Of a DNA stretch of 39,968 nt, positions 1,952 to 39,968 are shown in pieces. Source of the stretch: Nitrospinaceae bacterium (lineage in GTDB: Bacteria; Nitrospinota; Nitrospinia; Nitrospinales; Nitrospinaceae); NCBI GenBank assembly GCA_029261395.1, contig JAJDBJ010000077.1, forward strand, positions 1-39,968. The letters are read 5' to 3'. Position 1 is the stretch's first letter; each line of letters starts with the position of its first letter. The position numbers and the translations under genes are program-made. The notes under the pieces are model-generated. The model searched no databases, was not told where the DNA came from, and saw nothing but the letters and a program-made list of their open reading frames with translations.

Positions 1952-2995
1952 ATGACGATAGAACGCGACATTCCACCCGACCGCGACATGGACTCTGCCG
2001 TCGCTCCACAGGAAACGGTGTACGAGACGAAACTGCGTCCGAATACCTTCGACGATTACACCGGCCAGGAGCAGATCAAACAGAATCTCCATATCTCCAT
2101 TTCCGCCGCGAAGATGCGCAAGGAACCGCTCGATCATGTGTTGTTCTACGGACCGCCCGGCCTCGGCAAAACCACGCTGGCGCACATCATCGCATCGGAG
2201 ATGGGATCGAACCTGAAAACCACGTCCGGCCCGGTGATCGAAAAGTCGGGTGACCTGGCGGCTCTGCTGACCAATCTACAGCCGGACGATATTTTGTTCA
2301 TCGACGAGATTCACCGCCTGCCCAAACAGATCGAGGAAATTCTGTACCCGGCGATGGAAGATTACCAGTTGGATATCATGATCGGGCAGGGACCGAGTGC
2401 GCGTTCGATCAAACTCGAACTGCCGCCGTTCACGCTGGTGGGCGCGACCACACGGGCGGGATCGTTGACCTCTCCCCTGCGCGACCGTTTCGGCGTGGTG
2501 CATCGTCTCGACTTTTACTCGGCGGAGGATTTAAGCACGATCCTGCACCGCTCAGCGAAAATCCTCGATGTCGAAATGACCGAAACGGGATGCCAGGAAA
2601 TCTCCCGACGTTCGCGCGGCACCCCGCGCATCGCCAACCGTTTACTGCGGCGCGTGCGCGACTACGCCCAGGTGAAGGGCGACGGCAGCATCAATCCGGA
2701 GATCGCCGACAAGGCACTGGCGTTGATGGAAGTGGATCACGCCGGGCTGGACAAGATGGATCACAAACTACTGCTGACGCTAATCGACCAGTTCAAGGGT
2801 GGCCCGGTGGGGGTGGAAAGCCTCGCCGCCTCCATCCACGAAGAACGCGAAACCATCGAAGACGTCTACGAACCGTATCTTCTGCAAATGGGATTCCTCC
2901 ACCGCACCCCACGCGGACGCGTCGCCACAGCTCTGGCGTACGAACATTTCGGCAAAACCCTACCCAGCCAAAATTCTCAAAACTCCTTGTTCTAA
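1952..2995 (+). CDS. ruvB: Holliday junction ATPase RuvB
   Basis: AAA+ motor that drives branch migration with RuvA. The length is 347 residues. Walker [10 protein letters not shown] lies at residues 67-75; Walker B is LFIDEIHRL; the sensor and arginine-finger region [15 protein letters not shown] and the C-terminal winged-helix domain with TPRGRVAT are present. RBS AAGGATAA precedes ATG 1952. It closes the yebC-ruvCAB cluster; an interspersed repeat begins within 10 nt of its stop. Confidence 0.97.
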
Positions 2996-3000
2996 CTCTT

Positions 3001-3060
3001 CCCCAGAGGGGGAATTTGCTGACGGGTAACGGCGGACGACGACCGTTGAGCGCAACTCAG
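3001..3060 (-). repeat. Interspersed repeat R1, copy a
   Basis: Read on the minus strand this copy contains TTGCGCTCAACGGTCGTC followed by GCCGTTACCCGTCAGC. The same pattern recurs at 8775-8820, 8839-8889 and, with a different middle, 20114-20166. It fills the space between the convergent ruvB and PHP genes. No coding potential was seen. Confidence 0.7.
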
Positions 3061-3064
3061 GGTT

Positions 3065-3967
3065 TTAGATTTGCTCCGGCGCTTCGCCGGTCCAAACTTT
3101 TTGGAAGCGTGGTAGGAACGAGTCGTCCATTTTGGTGGTGCCCAGCATGTCGGGCGTCTGGTAGGTGGTGAAGCCGTGGAAATCGCGGCTACCGGTGGGG
3201 ATCATGTCGTACTCATCGGCGAGGTCGAGGAAGTATTGCACCTTGCCGGTTTTCTCGTGGTGAGGGTAGATGCATTCCAGGCCGAGTAATCCCTTGGCCT
3301 TTAAATCCTCCACCATTTCCGGTACAGCTTCCTGTTTTCTGCCCTTGTCCGGGTTGTAAAGAGAGTAGGTCCGCTCGCCGGGATGCGCGAGGACCGGCAC
3401 ACCGTTACTGGCGCGCACCATACTCAAGGCTTCTTCAATTTTCAGGTTATCTTTTTCGACATTGTATTTGACCAAATATTTTTCGAATGCGGCATTGGTA
3501 CTTTTGACGATTCCGAGACGAACCATCTCGCGCGCCAGATGCGGCCGCGCCAGCACCCCTTCCGACCCTTTCTTCACGTTGTCGAACGTGATTGTTCCGC
3601 GAAAGCGATCGGGAATCACCTCATTGATCTTGGCAATCAGTTGGTGCATGCGATCTTCGCGGGCTTCTTTCATCGTCTCGACACGGTCCCACAAATCCGG
3701 AAGTATGGCATCGAGAGATTTAAAATAGGACAACAGATGCAGATTGAAATCGCGGTACTGGACAGTGATCTCGATGCCGCAAAATGCGAAGATTCCGGAG
3801 TCTTTTGCGGCATCCATGAACTCCGGCAGACCCGAAAAGGTATCGTGATCGGTCAACGCCATGATGCCCACGCCATTTTTTTTACCGATATCAATCAGCG
3901 CGGCCGGCGCAAACTCGCCATCGGAAAAAACGGAGTGCATGTGAATTTCAGATTTGCGTGTGGTCAT
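3065..3967 (-). CDS. PHP-domain metallophosphoesterase (TrpH/YciV/RNase AM-like)
   Basis: Cytosolic phosphoesterase of the polymerase-and-histidinol-phosphatase superfamily. Relatives include E. coli YciV (RNase AM), which trims short 5' RNA ends and hydrolyses 3',5'-nucleotide bisphosphates. The 300-residue protein shows the metal-binding pattern: HMHSVFSDG near residues 9-17, ALTDHDTFSG near 37-46, GIEIT near 64, LARPHLAREM near 139, LAHPGE near 194, and DFHG near 262. All expected His/Asp positions appear intact. ATG 3967 is the first Met in frame. It is transcribed alone on the minus strand, convergent with ruvB. The fold is clear; the substrate is inferred only from family membership. 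Confidence 0.88.
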   Translation of the reverse strand: MTTRKSEIHMHSVFSDGEFAPAALIDIGKKNGVGIMALTDHDTFSGLPEFMDAAKDSGIFAFCGIEITVQYRDFNLHLLSYFKSLDAILPDLWDRVETMKEAREDRMHQLIAKINEVIPDRFRGTITFDNVKKGSEGVLARPHLAREMVRLGIVKSTNAAFEKYLVKYNVEKDNLKIEEALSMVRASNGVPVLAHPGERTYSLYNPDKGRKQEAVPEMVEDLKAKGLLGLECIYPHHEKTGKVQYFLDLADEYDMIPTGSRDFHGFTTYQTPDMLGTTKMDDSFLPRFQKVWTGEAPEQI

Positions 3968-4164
3968 GGGTCCTCACAAAAGAGATGAGGCGCGAAGAAG
4001 ATCATTGCCTCGTGTATCCATATTAGCTTCTTTTACGCTCAAAAGAAACGAATCACCTTGAAAAACAGCCGTTTTCCCGGATGTTCTTTCATTTCCCAAC
4101 GCCCGTGCCATGATGTAAAATTGTAGAACCATTGATTTACGCACTCCACCATGAGGAAGAACTC

Positions 4165-5505
4165 TTGCGCCCACACAACCGAATCCTAAAAATTCCCAAG
4201 GCCGTCATGGTCCTTCTGGTGACGCTTTTGATGAGCTGTACCGCTCTTCCCGATCAGCCCGAACCTCAGTCCGGTGAGGTGTTCATCATCTATTCGGGAA
4301 ACGCGCTGGGCGAGCTCAAACCCTGCGGCTGTGACAAGGAGGAAGACCAGGGCGGCATTGAGCGCCGCATGAGTTATCTGAAACATGTCATCCCACAGGA
4401 ACCCAACACACTGCTTGTCGATCTGGGAGACAACTTCAAGGGATCGACCCGGCAAGGCAAACTCAAGTCGCAGACCATGATGCAGGCCCTGGGGCAGATG
4501 AACTATGACGCCATCACTCTGGGCGACAAGGATCTGCTGTACGGCAACGGGTTTCTCGGCGGCATAGCCAACATCCCGTGGGTGGCCGCCAACCTGCAAC
4601 TGGAAGGACTCGCCCTGCCGCCTTCGCGCACCAAGGTGCTGGCCAATGGCTTGAAAGTGTTCATCACCGCCGTGGCCGATCCGGATCTTTTTTACGCGTC
4701 TCCCGATTCCAACGTCAAGCTGAGCGATCCCGTGGTGGCATTACAGCAACAAATCGACACCGCCCGCAAGAATGATTCGCCGGACCTGATCGTGGTCCTC
4801 ACCCATATGCCGCGCGACAAGGGAATAAAATTTCTGGAAGTGCCCGGCGTTGATATCGTCATCAACGGTCATATTGAAACGGATAACGATTTGATCGACA
4901 TGACCCCGGTAGAACGGAACGGAAAAATATTCGTCCAGCCCGGACCCTTGGGACAGAAAATGGGGGAGTTGCGAGTCCGTATCAATCCGGATGGTGACAA
5001 ATCATTTCAGCAGAAAATGGTGCGCCTCGGGTCAAAGGCGCCGATGGACCCGGAAATGACGCAATTATACGACGCCTACAACGCGGAAGTGGAGGAGCTG
5101 TTCATGGCCACCCTGGCCGCCAAGCGCAAGCAAAAACAGAATCGAGTCTACGCAACGGACCAGGTCTGCCTGACCTGCCACGCCAGGGAACATGGCCTCT
5201 GGTCGAAGACGGGTCACAGCCGGGCTTACGCGGCGCTTGAGGAAGCAAACAAATCGTTCGACCCGGAGTGTCTGGCCTGCCATACCACCGGCTTTGAGAA
5301 ACCGGGCGGCTTCATCAGTGAAATCGACACGCCGAAACTCAAAAATGTACAATGCGAAATGTGCCACGGCGCGCGCTTGGAGCATACCCAAAACCCGCAA
5401 GGGGGATTCGCGAAGGAAGCCAGGGCGGCCTGCGGCAAATGTCATGTCAAAAAACACAGCCCAAAATTCAATTTTAGCCAGTATTGGCCGCGTATCAGGC
5501 ACTGA
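4165..5505 (+). CDS. Lipoprotein: metallophosphatase-like domain fused to tetraheme cytochrome c
   Basis: Probable periplasm-facing lipoprotein. I place the start at TTG 4165 because GAGGAAG lies six nucleotides upstream, and because this start gives a basic N terminus, a short hydrophobic stretch and the lipobox LLMSC. The frame is open upstream to TTG 4132, and ATG 4207 is an alternative. The N-terminal part (about 40-300) resembles 5'-nucleotidase/calcineurin-like phosphoesterases (LLVDLGDNF, ITLGDKDLLYG, VLTHMPRDKG, VINGHIE). The usual first D-x-H motif is replaced by SGNALGELKPCGC and the usual GNHE/D by GDKD, so metal binding or hydrolysis may be altered. The C-terminal part has four CxxCH haem sites at residues 335, 369, 397 and 423 (CLTCH, CLACH, CEMCH, CGKCH), like cytochrome c554-type proteins. 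Downstream are a DsbA-like protein and an S41 protease. Electron transfer is likely; any phosphatase activity is uncertain. Confidence 0.85.
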   Translation: MRPHNRILKIPKAVMVLLVTLLMSCTALPDQPEPQSGEVFIIYSGNALGELKPCGCDKEEDQGGIERRMSYLKHVIPQEPNTLLVDLGDNFKGSTRQGKLKSQTMMQALGQMNYDAITLGDKDLLYGNGFLGGIANIPWVAANLQLEGLALPPSRTKVLANGLKVFITAVADPDLFYASPDSNVKLSDPVVALQQQIDTARKNDSPDLIVVLTHMPRDKGIKFLEVPGVDIVINGHIETDNDLIDMTPVERNGKIFVQPGPLGQKMGELRVRINPDGDKSFQQKMVRLGSKAPMDPEMTQLYDAYNAEVEELFMATLAAKRKQKQNRVYATDQVCLTCHAREHGLWSKTGHSRAYAALEEANKSFDPECLACHTTGFEKPGGFISEIDTPKLKNVQCEMCHGARLEHTQNPQGGFAKEARAACGKCHVKKHSPKFNFSQYWPRIRH

Positions 5506-5585
5506 AAATTTCCTGTCGAAGGGATGGCATAACCACCCCCTTTTCCCATATAATAGAAGTACATTCAATCCTATTGGGAGTTTCC

Positions 5586-6254
5586 ATGAGATACGCTACC
5601 GCCATCATTTGTTGCACGTTACTTGCATTCCTGACCTCCGGGAGTGTGGCACTATCCGCCGACAAAAACACCCGCCCGCCGGTGAAATTGGATCAGGTAC
5701 CCGGAGTCAAGGGCAAGTACCAGCTTTTGGGCAAGGCGGATGGGCTCAAAGGAGCCAAACAGATTGAGATGATTGAGTTTTTTAATTATTCCTGCGGCCA
5801 CTGTTACAAGTTTTTAAAAGCTTCCGAGCGGCTTCATAAAAAATATAAAGGCAAACTCCTGCACAAAAAATCCCCCATCTATTGGGGAGAACAGACCCCC
5901 TACCCGGCGATGGCGTTCTACATTGCAGACGAACAGGGAATAGAGGAAAAATTCACCCAGGAGTTGTTTGACACCAATTTTCAGTTGAACGTCAATATCT
6001 TCCAACCCCGCGTTCTCAAACTCCTTGCCAAGGATCACGGCATCGAGAAAGAAATGATGGAGGGCATGCAGTCCTCCTCCATAAAATCCAAGGTTCAAAA
6101 TTCGCTGGCACTGGCCCAACAATACAAAGCCAACGAAACGCCAACGGTCATCATCAACGAAACCTTAAAAGTGACTCCAAGTATTTCCGGGGGCAGCATC
6201 GAAATGATGACAGACAACCTGGAAGTTATTTTTGACAGCATCTTAAACCCGTGA
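5586..6254 (+). CDS. DsbA-like thiol:disulfide oxidoreductase, periplasmic
   Basis: Thioredoxin-fold protein with signal peptide MRYATAIICCTLLAFLTSGS, cleaved near ALSA. The active site is C70-G-H-C73 in the context FNYSCGHCYKF, and the cis-proline loop NETPTVII is present. CGHC is typical of DsbA-type oxidases or isomerases of the periplasm. ATG 5586 is chosen over the longer upstream frame because TTGGGAG lies just before it and the signal peptide starts there. The gene follows a tetraheme cytochrome and overlaps the start of the S41 protease gene by 4 nt (GTGA). It could help fold the neighbouring exported proteins; that is inference. Confidence 0.9.
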   Translation: MRYATAIICCTLLAFLTSGSVALSADKNTRPPVKLDQVPGVKGKYQLLGKADGLKGAKQIEMIEFFNYSCGHCYKFLKASERLHKKYKGKLLHKKSPIYWGEQTPYPAMAFYIADEQGIEEKFTQELFDTNFQLNVNIFQPRVLKLLAKDHGIEKEMMEGMQSSSIKSKVQNSLALAQQYKANETPTVIINETLKVTPSISGGSIEMMTDNLEVIFDSILNP

Positions 6255-35826: not shown

Positions 35827-37239
35827 ATGACTGAAGAAGTACGCGTCCGTTTCGCCCCCAGCCCCACAGGATTCCTCCACATCGGCGGGGTACGCACCGC
35901 CCTGTTCAATTGGCTGTTCGCCCGCCACTTTAATGGCAAGTTCATTCTGCGGATCGAGGACACCGACCACGAACGCTCCACCGAGGACTCCATTCATGAA
36001 ATCATCGAGTCGATGCGCTGGCTGGGGCTCGACTGGGACGAAGGCCCCTTCCGCCAGACGGAGAGGCAAAGCCTCTACACGCAAAAAGTTCAGGAATTGC
36101 TGGACGGTCAAAAAGCGTATCTCTGTTACTGCACTGCGGAAGAACTCGAACACCGCCGCAAAATGGCGCAGGACCAGGGCGCCAAACCGAAGTACGACGG
36201 CAAATGCCGCAGTCGCACCGAATTCCCCGAAGGCGCGCCGCACGTCATCCGCTTCAAATGCCCGCAGGAGGGCAACGTGATCGTCAACGATATCCTGCGC
36301 GGCAACGTCACGTTTGATCTGGCCGAGCAGGACGACTTCATCATACTGCGCACCGACGGCTCGCCGACCTATAACTTCGTGGTGGTGGTGGACGACGCCG
36401 ATATGCGCATCAGCCACGTCATCCGGGGCGACGACCACCTGTCCAATACGCCGCGCCAGGCGCTGCTAAACGACGCCCTCGGCTTCACGCGCCCGCAGTT
36501 CGCGCACATCAGCATGATCCTCGGCGAAGACAAATCGCGCCTGTCGAAACGCCACGGCGCAACGGCCACCCTCGCCTACCGCGACATGGGCTACCTCCCC
36601 AACGCATTGGTCAATTTCCTGGCGCGCCTCGGCTGGTCGCACGGCGACCAGGAACTGTTCACCATCGACGAATTGATCAAACATTTTACACTTCAACACG
36701 TCACCACTTCCGCCGCCGTGTTCAATCCCGAGAAATTGTTGTGGGTCAACGAGCAGTGGATTCAGTCGGACGAGAAAATTTCTTCTCTGGAATTGGCAAA
36801 ACATCTGGAGCCGATTTTGGTTCAGGAAAAAGTTTTACCTGAAAACCACAGCAAAGCTTTAGAAGATATCGCCAAAGTCATCCCCTCATTACGACAAAGA
36901 GCAAAGACCCTGATCGAAATGGCCCACGGCGCCGAGTTTTATCTCAAAGATGAAGTGACGTTTGACGAGAAGGCGAAAGCCAAATTTCTAAAGCCGGAAG
37001 TGAAGCCGCTGTTTGAAACACTGGTGGCAGGATTGGAAACGATGGTGGAACCGTTGAATCACGACGTCGTCGAACTCCTGTTCAAAAAGACCGTCGAGGA
37101 CGCCGGTCTGAAACTCGGCAAACTCGCCCAGCCCGTCCGCGTCGCCCTCACCGGCAAAACCGCGTCTCCCGGTATTTTTGACGTCGTGCTATTGCTGGGG
37201 AAAAAACGAACCATTGAGCGGCTCCAAAAGGCTTTTTAA
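35827..37239 (+). CDS. gltX: Glutamyl-tRNA synthetase
   Basis: Class I aminoacyl-tRNA synthetase that charges tRNA-Glu in the cytosol. 470 residues. The HIGH motif is FLHIGG in PSPTGFLHIGGVRTALF, and the KMSKS-like loop is DKSRLSKRHG. The C-terminal anticodon-binding domain ends with GKTASPGIFDVVLLLGKKRT and a final helix. RBS AAGGAG lies 6 nt before the ATG. A 71-nt copy of part of its 3' end (37093-37163) sits downstream at 38411-38481. In the ancestral order it probably faced glnS directly. Confidence 0.97.
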   Translation: MTEEVRVRFAPSPTGFLHIGGVRTALFNWLFARHFNGKFILRIEDTDHERSTEDSIHEIIESMRWLGLDWDEGPFRQTERQSLYTQKVQELLDGQKAYLCYCTAEELEHRRKMAQDQGAKPKYDGKCRSRTEFPEGAPHVIRFKCPQEGNVIVNDILRGNVTFDLAEQDDFIILRTDGSPTYNFVVVVDDADMRISHVIRGDDHLSNTPRQALLNDALGFTRPQFAHISMILGEDKSRLSKRHGATATLAYRDMGYLPNALVNFLARLGWSHGDQELFTIDELIKHFTLQHVTTSAAVFNPEKLLWVNEQWIQSDEKISSLELAKHLEPILVQEKVLPENHSKALEDIAKVIPSLRQRAKTLIEMAHGAEFYLKDEVTFDEKAKAKFLKPEVKPLFETLVAGLETMVEPLNHDVVELLFKKTVEDAGLKLGKLAQPVRVALTGKTASPGIFDVVLLLGKKRTIERLQKAF

Positions 37240-37306
37240 TTTCAACTTGACTCCAAAAATTCTCTGGGTAAAACTTGTCATAAATTTCATCCGGAGGATT
37301 ATCACT

Positions 37307-37639
37307 ATGAATACTCAACTCAGCTATCTTTACCGGGACGCATGGAACTACAAAAGGTTTCATTCTATTATTTTGCCGGGCATCATCACCCTAGAGCAAA
37401 TCGAACCTTTTTTAAGAGAGCAGACTTTCTTTATCCCCTCTGAAGTCGGCTTACCGGACTTACAAGAAGACGTTTTTAAATCCTACGATCATATCTGGCA
37501 TGAAATAGAAGCCATCGAATTAATCGACGAGCAACCCACCGCAACCATCAACGCCTCAGTTCTATTGGCTAATTTTAAAAAGGCTCATAGTTTGAACTGG
37601 AATGAGAGAGAAGTCTTTGCGCGAAAGGGTTTAGTGTGA
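37307..37639 (+). CDS. Cassette A, first gene: small partner of HNH nuclease, unknown
   Basis: 110 residues from ATG 37307, with GGAGG nine nucleotides upstream. The frame is open into gltX, so the RBS decides the start. It begins MNTQLSYLYRDAWNYKRFHS and has IIPGI-type hydrophobic strands, a FFIPSEVGLPDLQ segment and an acidic middle. No membrane segment or enzyme motif is seen. Its stop overlaps the GTG of the HNH gene by 4 nt (GTGA), so the two are translationally coupled and very likely act together, perhaps as an accessory or regulatory subunit. Low GC compared with gltX marks it as acquired. I do not recognise the family. Confidence 0.75.
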   Translation: MNTQLSYLYRDAWNYKRFHSIILPGIITLEQIEPFLREQTFFIPSEVGLPDLQEDVFKSYDHIWHEIEAIELIDEQPTATINASVLLANFKKAHSLNWNEREVFARKGLV

Positions 37640-38373
37640 GCGACACCGAACGCAAACTATGGACAAGAGACGAGCTACTCCTCGCTATTAATCTGTATTG
37701 CAAAATACCCTTTGGAAGAATTCATTATAAAAATCCTGAAATTATTGAGTTAGCAAATAAACTTGGGCGAACGCCGGGTTCCATCAGTTATAAGTTGGCA
37801 AATTTCTCTAGCCTAGATCCAACTCTTGATCGTAAAGGCGCAGCGAATGTTAGCAAGCTAGACAAAGAAGTTTGGGCTGAGTTCTATGACAATTGGGAAG
37901 AGAAGCTTTCGGAAAGCGAATCGAAGTTGGCGGAATTGAAAGGCGCACTGGATATCCCAGAAGAATTACCGGAACTTGAAATAACAGAGGGAAAAACCAG
38001 AGAAGCTATTGTTAAAACGCGGGTGAATCAGGGCTTGTTTCGGAAAATCATCCTGTCGTCCTACGATGAGAAATGCTGTATTACAGGAATCGATAATGCC
38101 GAGCTATTAATCGCCAGCCACATTGTCCCTTGGTCGCGAGATACCAAAAATCGCTTAAACCCCATGAACGGAGTTTGCCTAAACGCACTCCATGACCGCG
38201 CTTTCGATAAGGGACTAATTACAATCAGCGAAGACTATCGAGTGGTGGTTTCCAAAAAAGTAAAACATGAATTACTTTTAAAATATAATACCGCACAAAT
38301 TTCCCTGCCAAGCCGTTTCCGCCCCGACCAAAATTTTCTTAAATTCCATAGAAACGAAATATTTAGAAATTGA
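37636..38373 (+). CDS. Cassette A, second gene: HNH endonuclease
   Basis: 245 residues from GTG 37636. The N-terminal part (about 8-65: TRDELLLAINLYCKIPFGRI, ELANKLGRTPGSISYKL) is a helical, probably DNA-binding domain often found in front of restriction-type HNH domains. A linker rich in Glu/Leu follows. The C-terminal HNH_2-like nuclease domain (about 130-205) has CCITGID, H162 in ASHIVPWS, N179 in MNGVCLN and H186 in ALHDRAFDKGLI, the metal and catalytic positions. It is AT-rich, coupled to the preceding gene, and ends 7 nt before a remnant of the glnS stop. Likely a restriction or defence nuclease; no methyltransferase lies nearby. Confidence 0.88.
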   Translation: MSDTERKLWTRDELLLAINLYCKIPFGRIHYKNPEIIELANKLGRTPGSISYKLANFSSLDPTLDRKGAANVSKLDKEVWAEFYDNWEEKLSESESKLAELKGALDIPEELPELEITEGKTREAIVKTRVNQGLFRKIILSSYDEKCCITGIDNAELLIASHIVPWSRDTKNRLNPMNGVCLNALHDRAFDKGLITISEDYRVVVSKKVKHELLLKYNTAQISLPSRFRPDQNFLKFHRNEIFRN

Positions 38374-38380
38374 CACCCCT

Positions 38381-38414
38381 TTACCCCTTCTTTTGGACTT
38401 TGGCCCAGGTGTCG
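38381..38414 (-). pseudogene. Remnant of the glnS 3' end (34 nt)
   Basis: Identical to 39862-39895, the last codons and TAA stop of glnS on the minus strand. Identity stops abruptly at GTCG, which is shared with the start of the adjoining gltX remnant. With 39862-39895 it forms direct repeats bounding a 1,481-bp unit that contains cassette B. Confidence 0.95.
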
Positions 38415-38488
38415 AGGACGCCGGATTGAAACTCGGCAAACTCGCCCAGCCCGTCCGCGTCGCCCTCACCGGCAAAACCGCAACCTAG
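38411..38488 (+). pseudogene. Remnant of the gltX 3' end (71 nt) with new stop
   Basis: Positions 38411-38481 match gltX 37093-37163 at 69 of 71 positions. The two differences (GGT to GGA, CTG to TTG) are adjacent-codon synonymous changes. After GKTA the frame reads one Thr and TAG (38486-38488), so a protein ending here would lack the last 24 residues of GltX. The TAG overlaps the GTG (38488) of the next gene by one base. Confidence 0.95.
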
Positions 38489-39822
38489 TGGTGTATCATA
38501 AAAAAATGACTATTGATCAATCCCCCACATTAACCTCAGAGCAATTACGTGAAGCTTTGGTCTTTGCCAAACGACTAGTTAACTCTATCCATCCCAAATG
38601 GTTAGAAAGACAAAATAGGAAGCGGCCCATCGATCCTGTTCTCTTGGAACCACAAAGAGCGCTTTATACAAGAAATCAAAATATTGCAACTATAGCTGAC
38701 GGATATCAGGACACCTCTATTCACCCCGTAGCAGAATGCATATTATCAGCAGAAAAAGCCCTTAAGGATACTGACGAAGGAAAGCATGTAATATTTTCTC
38801 CTTCCTTTTATAGGGTTCTTTCTCTAGCGGATGTCGAAAAAAATAAAACTCATATTAAAGGAATTGAAACAAGATTTCCAAAGCTTCTAACTCCAAAGGA
38901 ATGGAAAAGCACCCTCCACGAATTAATTATCGCAATAAGCTATCTCCCTGAAGTTAAGCCAGAATTATTGCCCGACAATACGGACCAAAAAGGCGTAGCA
39001 GATATTTTACTGCCGACCATTCCAGAAACCTTTGTCGAATGCAAAACTCGCCTGCAATATGAAGATAAAATTATAAAGTTAAATGAAAAATGGAGAAAAA
39101 ACGCCTTACGTGAAATTTGGAAAGCATTGATGAAATACCAGGGAAGCTTTCTTATCAAAATCAATCTCCTCAAGCCACAAGTCGAAAAGACCTTAAAAAA
39201 AGATATCCCAAATTTCATTGAAGACATGATTAACAACGGGATACGCAACAAAACCTTTAATGATGATTATTCAATTTCCATTGAACCTTTCTTGGAAGAA
39301 GAAAAAAACCTGCCACAACCTATGCCAACAACAGATCTTAAAATTTGGGAATGGGCCTTTGATTTCAAAGAATGGGATGAATGGCATCATTGGCTTCCAA
39401 CAGGCGACATTACAACCTCCAAAGAAAACCCTGGGTTAGCAGTAAAAGTTAAGAAATTAATTTTAATTTGTTTCAGGGCGGATTACCTCAAAGACAATAA
39501 AGCCAATCTGATAAACTCACTAAAGCATGCCTCAAAACACCAATTAAAAAAAGGGAACCCCGGTATAATTTTTGTGCATTTGAACGCTAGTCTATATGGA
39601 TTAGGTCAATTGAGAAAAATTGAATCAATACGTGATGATCTAAATGGTCCTATACGGCAATTCTTAAAAAATCATTCAAGGGTTTGGAAGGTAATAATTG
39701 ACGTCACTTATGAAGGAGACTATTTTCCGTTTGAAGCAAAAGCCTATAGGATCGTAGCTACTAATAGTAAATGGGCAACACCTGATCATTATGTAGAACC
39801 CAAGCCCATATTAATTTTGTAG
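38488..39822 (+). CDS. Cassette B: putative PD-(D/E)XK-type nuclease, unknown family
   Basis: 444 residues from GTG 38488, which overlaps the stop of the gltX remnant (TAGTG); ATG 38506, six codons on, is the alternative, and neither has a clear RBS. Counting from ATG 38506, E139 (LHELIIAIS), D166 (KGVADILLP) and E178-C-K180 (ETFVECKTR) have the order and spacing of a PD-(D/E)XK nuclease core, with D and ExK on successive predicted strands. No methyltransferase, helicase or membrane segment is present. The gene is strongly AT-rich with lysine and asparagine abundant, unlike gltX. It lies in the gltX-glnS hotspot beside an HNH cassette, which makes a restriction or anti-phage role the best guess. 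Family not recognised. Confidence 0.72.
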   Translation: MVYHKKMTIDQSPTLTSEQLREALVFAKRLVNSIHPKWLERQNRKRPIDPVLLEPQRALYTRNQNIATIADGYQDTSIHPVAECILSAEKALKDTDEGKHVIFSPSFYRVLSLADVEKNKTHIKGIETRFPKLLTPKEWKSTLHELIIAISYLPEVKPELLPDNTDQKGVADILLPTIPETFVECKTRLQYEDKIIKLNEKWRKNALREIWKALMKYQGSFLIKINLLKPQVEKTLKKDIPNFIEDMINNGIRNKTFNDDYSISIEPFLEEEKNLPQPMPTTDLKIWEWAFDFKEWDEWHHWLPTGDITTSKENPGLAVKVKKLILICFRADYLKDNKANLINSLKHASKHQLKKGNPGIIFVHLNASLYGLGQLRKIESIRDDLNGPIRQFLKNHSRVWKVIIDVTYEGDYFPFEAKAYRIVATNSKWATPDHYVEPKPILIL

Positions 39823-39861: not shown

Positions 39862-39968
39862 TTACCCCTTCTTTTGGACTTTGGCCCAGGTGTCGCGGAG
39901 GGGGGTGGTGCGGTTGAAGATGGGGGTGCCGGGTTTGCTGTCCACAGCGTCGGCGATGAAGTAGCCCA
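39862..39968 (-). CDS. glnS: Glutaminyl-tRNA synthetase, C-terminal fragment
   Basis: The minus strand reads GYFIADAVDSKPGTPIFNRT and then TPLRDTWAKVQKKG with a TAA stop, the typical C terminus of GlnRS (F-N-R-T-x-x-L-R-D-T-W-A-K). Only 34 codons are inside the window; the gene continues to the right. It faces gltX, with the two cassettes between them. The last 34 nt are duplicated at 38381-38414. Confidence 0.9.
   Translation of the reverse strand, partial: GYFIADAVDSKPGTPIFNRTTPLRDTWAKVQKKG

Follow-up and report, generated by a model that had tools for sequence, protein, structure and literature searches.

The window analysed here, a stretch of 39,968 nucleotides from a member of the Nitrospinaceae, carries a two-gene nuclease module between the convergent housekeeping genes gltX and glnS, the C-terminus of the latter being recognised at 6.7e-8. 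A gene for a small protein is followed by that for an HNH endonuclease (Table 1), and both reading frames are open. The first-pass annotation had pointed to the GTGA overlap of the two genes and to a strong ribosome-binding site ahead of the first; coordinates and overlap proved to be as described there, and the site reads GGAGGA. Its notion of a nuclease module with an unrecognised, translationally coupled partner likewise stands, given this overlap and the conserved, unnamed family to which the small protein belongs.

Table 1. Features of the gltX-glnS region of the window.
Feature	Coordinates	Strand	Remarks
gltX, flanking housekeeping gene	35827..37239	+	Pfam
gltX 3' part	37093..37163	+	original of 71-bp direct repeat
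Ribosome-binding site of small gene	37293..37298	+	GGAGGA, 8 bases ahead of ATG
Small partner gene	37307..37639	+	110 aa; ATG at 37307, stop TGA at 37637-37639
Overlap of the two genes	37636..37639	+	GTGA, 4 bases; HNH GTG start inside small-gene stop
HNH endonuclease gene	37636..38373	+	245 aa; helical N-terminal domain and HNH_2 domain
Copy of glnS 3' end	38381..38418	+	97%; fused to gltX copy at cassette junction
Copy of gltX 3' segment	38411..38481	+	97%; downstream of HNH gene
Third island gene	38506..39822	+	438 aa; D...ExK-like stretch (D...ECK)
glnS 3' end	39862..39899	-	original of 38-bp repeat

The three genes enclosed by gltX and glnS form an island with a third-position GC content of 0.48, 0.42 and 0.33, against 0.72 for gltX. 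Copies of the ends of both flanking genes follow the HNH cassette and precede the third gene, so that this junction is a fusion of a glnS end with a gltX end. Insertion with long target duplication is known for restriction-modification genes, and the repeats of the island resemble it. The third gene resides in a repeat-bounded cassette of its own and encodes a protein that gave no family match in Pfam, PADLOC, PHROG or NCBIfam; judging from its sequence, it is possibly a second nuclease cassette of the PD-(D/E)XK type. In a genome of the same genus (G018, locus L123), a Vsr gene (2057-2497) and, by eye, a response-regulator-like gene (2558-3511) follow directly after gltX, and another genome carries different genes at the gltX site. 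Since related genomes hold Vsr or other genes there, the site is a hotspot, and the copied gltX and glnS ends suggest repeated insertion at a defence hotspot.

The window HNH protein matches Pfam HNH_2 (E=7.8e-13) and, over almost its whole length, the PADLOC HNH model PDLC04132 (E=2.2e-93); its C-terminal part additionally resembles the NCBIfam model PT-DNA_restrict (NF045808, 2.7e-17), with 62.8 bits and thus under the 180-bit cut-off. H162, N175, N178 and H186 are invariant in 22 HNH sequences, and H162 aligns with H224 of VcaM4I in a PDB profile match (3.3e-19) that is limited to the HNH part (profile positions 100-251), the EVE domain of VcaM4I being absent from the window protein. In this respect, the catalytic residues are intact, as expected of a type IV enzyme. 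According to the excerpted VcaM4I study, the alanine variant of H224 is an inactive control (PMC7897488). The predicted structure (pLDDT 88) comprises an all-helical N-terminal domain, and its structural neighbours are VcaM4I (1.4e-6) and TagI (1.1e-3), both of which are modification-dependent. For the N-terminal part, Pfam yielded no modified-base reader domain, and structure matches of helix-turn-helix type were weak. The family at large was surveyed in the best 80 of at least 584 relatives, with one genome per GTDB species. Nine of these 80 loci adjoin a second HNH gene matching a phosphorothioate-dependent restriction model, above the cut-off in L043 and L109, by profile only in L100 and nearly at full length, below the cut-off, in the others. 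By its sequence, the window protein is an intact endonuclease whose HNH domain is nearest to those of modification-dependent (type IV) enzymes, and it is probably modification-dependent itself.

The small partner belongs to a family with the motif Y-x-YRD-xxN-x-K ... DH-x-W-H-E, in which 26 diverse members all have Y9, D11, N14, D61 and H62 and nearly all have K16. Using tblastn and profile searches, relatives were found in 12 plasmid and 6 phage records as well as in many bacterial phyla, which answers in the affirmative the question, raised by the first-pass annotation, of whether the gene is conserved as a protein. Searches of Pfam, PADLOC, PHROG and NCBIfam with the small protein gave nothing above cut-off; CoiA_C (Pfam, E=0.018) and MAG3960 (NCBIfam, E=0.02), both below it, were dropped as candidate families. 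An AlphaFold2 model of the protein is confident and compact (pLDDT 94, pTM 0.85) and consists, in this order, of two strands, helices, a third strand and two C-terminal helices. The invariant residues are polar, are also present in copies that occur solo on plasmids and phages, and map, in the model, to the loop joining strands 1 and 2 and to the stretch immediately ahead of strand 3. Fold searches with this model returned noise only (best E=0.52 in the PDB and 0.18 among viral structures), and the best hit of a VIA fold search (phage p6, Z 3.1, 48 residues) lay within 1 of unrelated rows; these blanks do not amount to a demonstration of a new fold. With a pI of 5.1 and a net charge of -6, the window protein is acidic, as are the small proteins of the first two alignments (A1 and A3, pI 4.1-6.1), whereas the 22 HNH proteins have a pI of 7.2-9.7. 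Several of the small proteins are nearly neutral (net charge -1), for which reason a strong DNA-mimic reading was set aside.

Among the best 80 HNH loci, the small gene immediately adjoins the HNH gene in 17, eight times upstream (L040, L051, L055, L056, L059, L064, L065 and L106) and nine times downstream (L068, L075, L078, L083, L103, L107, L108, L113 and L114). The hosts of these pairs include Desulfobacteraceae, Lentisphaerota, Cloacimonadota, Planctomycetota, Chlorobiota, Bacteroidota, Chloroflexota and Gallionellaceae. Four-base overlaps (ATGA or GTGA) occur in six of the eight upstream pairs listed, a list that includes the window and omits L064, with L056 read by eye from its bases. 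In the phylum of the window itself, three further genomes (G007, G024 and G047) have the HNH gene followed by the small gene. Each of the 17 paired genomes contains a single small copy, namely the one adjoining the HNH gene, and an eighteenth genome searched along with them has none. Whole-genome scans of phyla named after the organisms of the centre genomes, using profiles built mostly from HNH-linked copies, detected the small family in 0 of 395 Desulfobacterota genomes, in 19 of 395 from Bacteroidota/Chlorobiota and, in Pseudomonadota, in 3 (narrow profile) or 4 (broad profile) of 398. Measured against these frequencies, the pairing in 17 of 80 loci is far above chance, though it is not a fixed pair, as the remaining 63 loci are without the small gene. 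Hence, the conserved pairing that had been anticipated recurs, and does so in both gene orders, whereas strict two-gene pairing is ruled out: HNH homologues regularly occur without the small gene, which is just what the first-pass annotation had named as speaking against its proposal. Judged by genomic context, the same 63 loci also depart from toxin-antitoxin systems, where the partner is expected wherever the toxin occurs.

No DNA methyltransferase is present in the island or among the eight large ORFs of the window that were run against Pfam, so that the adjoining methyltransferase of a type II restriction-modification system was not found there and the window locus conforms, as far as these ORFs go, to type IV enzymes without a cognate methyltransferase. 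A genome-wide C5 search gave one partial match (PF00145) at a contig end. The earlier statement that no methyltransferase is present is thus correct for the island and the large window ORFs and may be too broad for the genome. Similarly, the view that a classical restriction-modification system is unlikely is upheld at this locus and does not extend to the whole HNH family, in which an intact C5 methyltransferase adjoins or is fused to the nuclease in three of the best 80 loci: on the same strand beside the HNH gene in L071 and L088, and, apparently intact, joined to HNH in a natural fusion in L113 (Gallionella, 3714-5762), where the small gene follows. The family therefore is mixed and not purely type IV. 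Further C5 methyltransferase matches lie within the fetched 5 kb of L060, L064, L070, L076, L089, L092, L110 and L114. By eye, the HNH genes of L070, L089, L092, L110 and L042 stand in apparent operons with a GHKL-type ATPase, and a C5 methyltransferase heads this cluster in the first four.

Remnants were traced by tblastn with the Dcm part alone. Just upstream of the small or HNH genes, C5 methyltransferases truncated at the 3' end, with five different cut points, were found in L021, L035, L040, L055 and L056 (the first two being outside the best 80 loci), and L116 retains the last 41 residues only. By its layout, with Vsr and a methyltransferase remnant of 133 residues, L035 is the gonococcal NgoAXIII locus. 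In the excerpt of the corresponding study, this locus is described as having methyltransferase remnants only, truncated in all strains studied, with a longer methyltransferase in N. lactamica (PMC6789123), and another work, in a section headed conflict avoidance, lists frame-shifted methyltransferases next to certain modification-dependent enzymes (PMC11037411). The remnants fit a nuclease that may tolerate, or even select, methyltransferase loss. They also bear on the proposal that the window HNH belonged to a type II system which lost its Dcm-type methyltransferase, and that it now would be inactive or protected by a methyltransferase elsewhere in the genome. The intact enzymes of L071, L088 and L113, the truncated and residual ones and the partial C5 match in the own genome are all in line with such decay. 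Yet, both reading frames of the module are open, the HNH residues are conserved, the state in which the methyltransferase is lost and the nuclease kept recurs in unrelated phyla, and the structural kin as well as some of the neighbours belong to the type IV enzymes, and we regard decay as very improbable.

When chromosomal copies of the small gene were collected by searches independent of HNH, a defence-type nuclease was found less than 1 kb away in 24 of 25 cases, a tally made outside the centre genomes G084, G092 and G090 and the window. It comprises 17/17 copies from Bacteroidota/Chlorobiota (about 16 independent cases, G539 and G660 being near copies), 2/3 from Pseudomonadota and 5/5 from the phylum of the window. 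The partners in Bacteroidota/Chlorobiota are eight members of the present HNH family (one of them split), seven PDC-S41 proteins and two SauUSI-like ones. The PDC-S41 partner (PADLOC, 4.2e-191) is a Schlafen group 3 helicase whose N-terminus looks, by eye, D...ExK-like, and in six of the seven cases its gene is convergent with the small gene, not operonic. The SauUSI-like partner is a PLD-ResIII-DUF3427 protein, pieces of which match PADLOC mREase_IV (5.8e-112 and 7.6e-87). Of the three copies in Pseudomonadota, the first is oriented divergently to an EVE-HNH enzyme that constitutes a full-length VcaM4I homologue (4.4e-72), the second is separated by 34 bases from the end of an HNH gene that is truncated where the contig stops, and next to the third, situated within an ORF of 247 residues beside a YqaJ-like gene (by eye), no nuclease was found. 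Within the phylum of the window, three of the five copies accompany this HNH family. For the other two, the small gene and a gene for a 149-residue protein are located about 0.8 kb from a full-length VcaM4I homologue (3.6e-81) in G041 and, in G040, at about the same distance from an SRA-HNH protein whose SRA part scores below cut-off. The 149-residue protein (L163, 5916-6365; L164, 5997-6446, with a pI of 4.5) is encoded ahead of the small gene with a 4-base overlap, and in both loci the two genes stand near SRA-HNH or EVE-HNH enzymes. The small family is thus associated with at least five nuclease types, i.e. HNH, EVE-HNH, SRA-HNH, SauUSI-like PLD-helicase and PDC-S41.

In a tree of 49 small proteins (without L182, L159/L191, L166, L190, L013 and L014), copies with different partners are interspersed, and this is well supported. 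A PDC-S41-linked copy has a SauUSI-linked one as its sister (99/93), the PDC-S41 clade is joined by an HNH-linked sister copy (100/98), and the copies near SRA-HNH and EVE-HNH enzymes form a sister pair (100/97) next to HNH-linked ones. Because of this intermixing, the small family appears to have exchanged its nuclease partners. The HNH genes, for their part, are accompanied by any of six recognised coupled small families in 41 of the best 80 loci and by none in 39. Besides the present family, these are a zinc ribbon (SDQPxTCPxCG) coupled to HNH in 12 loci, one of which also has the small gene, with the zinc ribbon directly upstream in 11 (e.g. L058, L093, L095 and L109) and downstream in L116; a 79-residue ETVADIAY family coupled to HNH in four; an 82-residue YLRASR family beside the HNH gene in two; a YGLETFG family coupled to it in two; and an XRE-like gene of Chlorobiaceae in five, once as a fragment. 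Plasmids gave no match for the ETV family and four records for the YGLE family. In an HNH tree whose bootstrap support is not fully settled and from which L041 (same contig as L017) was left out, near-identical HNH proteins have different partners, namely ETV in L062 versus the zinc ribbon in L069, and YRD in L113 versus the zinc ribbon in L116. This supports a two-way swapping by which the small family would change nucleases and the HNH family would change small genes.

Such exchange is also what one would expect if the small protein were a sensor, activator or targeting factor that binds an infection signal or a modified nucleotide and switches on the adjoining nuclease. One small family serves unrelated nucleases, near-identical HNH proteins occur with different partners as exchangeable sensors would, and the invariant polar residues are placed in the model (pLDDT 94) as a binding or active site might be. 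However, neither fold nor sequence matches a known reader, the copies on plasmids and phages would have no effector, and about half of the best 80 HNH relatives are without a recognised small partner. The last observation can be taken either way, as together with the single small fold on unrelated nucleases it favours a general sensor or reader. Overall, a role in sensing or targeting seems unlikely, albeit worth serious consideration.

The solo copies were inspected in 9 of the 12 plasmid records and 2 of the 6 phage records, and the window-type HNH family is absent from the fetched flanks of these loci. An annotated DNA methyltransferase lies within about 1.5 kb in four of the nine plasmid loci, a proportion to be read without a baseline frequency. 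A Mrr-type endonuclease is found about 1.25 kb from the small gene in L009, and a gene annotated as endonuclease about 1.5 kb from it in L014. The protein of the latter locus, from a Thalassospira plasmid, is not claimed as a fusion of two small-partner families, the similarity covering about 33 residues (E=1e-4 and 0.0018). Scans of viral contigs with profile A4 and with the phage copy yielded no relative of the small family, and none of five tested small families turned up in three viral HNH loci. Conceivably, the small genes are hitchhiking cargo, that is, independent anti-restriction or accessory genes that gather in common hotspots and do not act on the nucleases. The solo copies, the methyltransferases near four of the nine plasmid loci and the six out of seven PDC-S41 genes that are convergent with the small gene point in this direction; the four-base overlaps with the nuclease gene, the occurrence of both gene orders, the single copy per genome and the presence of a nuclease less than 1 kb away from 24 of the 25 chromosomal copies collected independently of HNH point away from it and leave cargo a quite improbable explanation.

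As a rule, modification-dependent nucleases are portrayed as enzymes encoded by a single gene. VcaM4I (PDB 6yex) resembles the window protein in its homologous HNH domain, the aligned catalytic histidine and the helices ahead of it, and in G041 and G971 homologues of VcaM4I stand next to members of the small family found in the window; VcaM4I differs by its EVE domain, and the excerpted study mentions no small partner (PMC7897488). TagI and the SBD/SRA-HNH type IV enzymes have the HNH fold in common with the window protein, which in contrast to the latter lacks a recognised SRA/SBD domain. The NgoAXIII locus of Neisseria gonorrhoeae (pheS, Vsr, truncated C5 methyltransferase, HNH, pheT) likewise encodes an HNH protein, 44% identical to that of the window, and is inserted between housekeeping genes with no working methyltransferase, as far as the excerpted study goes (PMC6789123); unlike the window, it includes Vsr, and the present small family is absent from the fetched locus. 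SauUSI-like enzymes (PLD-helicase-DUF3427) and PDC-S41 (Schlafen group 3 helicase) are unrelated in architecture to the window HNH and have the small family in common with it in other genomes. A small coupled gene beside a toxic nuclease is also a trait of restriction-modification controllers and toxin-antitoxin pairs. The small family departs from these in that no helix-turn-helix was recognised, that it is not obligatory and that it is common to unrelated nucleases.

We read the window module as a mobile restriction cassette without methyltransferase, probably modification-dependent, with an exchangeable acidic accessory. The most likely reading, although we put it at somewhat less than an even chance, is that the small protein restrains or times the nuclease. 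It would be made just ahead of the nuclease and would hold it in check, or tune the time of cutting, until infection, while the HNH enzyme would work without a cognate methyltransferase in a mobile defence cassette of restriction type; the solo copies found on plasmids and phages may act as anti-restriction proteins. Restraint is favoured because the small protein is made first and is acidic, and because freed HNH domains can be toxic: in the excerpt of the VcaM4I study, the HNH domain released from its autoinhibitory linker is a non-specific toxic nuclease (PMC7897488), which suggests that HNH domains of this kind need restraint. The solo copies, in four of nine plasmid loci near an annotated DNA methyltransferase, as expected of anti-restriction proteins, further argue for it.

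On the other hand, several observations speak against restraint. The 39 loci without a recognised small partner imply that the nuclease can live without one, and the intact C5 methyltransferase of three relatives corresponds to ordinary restriction-modification. That one small fold accompanies nucleases of unrelated folds does not sit easily with a lock-and-key inhibitor, and the polar invariant residues, present in solo copies too, could mean an enzyme or a ligand binder. The convergent orientation in six of seven PDC-S41 cases, the want of a recognised modified-base reader in the HNH N-terminus, and the mild acidity of the window protein, unlike known DNA mimics, also count against it. That the small protein binds or restrains the nuclease, and that solo copies counteract restriction, is something we infer. 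Going further, the YRD/DH family might represent a general control module for at least five unrelated nucleases that is traded for unrelated small modules such as zinc ribbons, with phage and plasmid anti-restriction proteins as the source of the host copies; this extension is rather doubtful.

The components of the module are of known kinds, while the small family, its link to multiple nucleases and the two-way swapping are absent from the literature searched, by text and not by sequence. A small partner common to several unrelated modification-dependent nucleases would reveal a hidden regulatory layer and would explain how such nucleases stay safe without a methyltransferase. The small copies of plasmids and phages would then be a candidate anti-restriction family that is directly testable.
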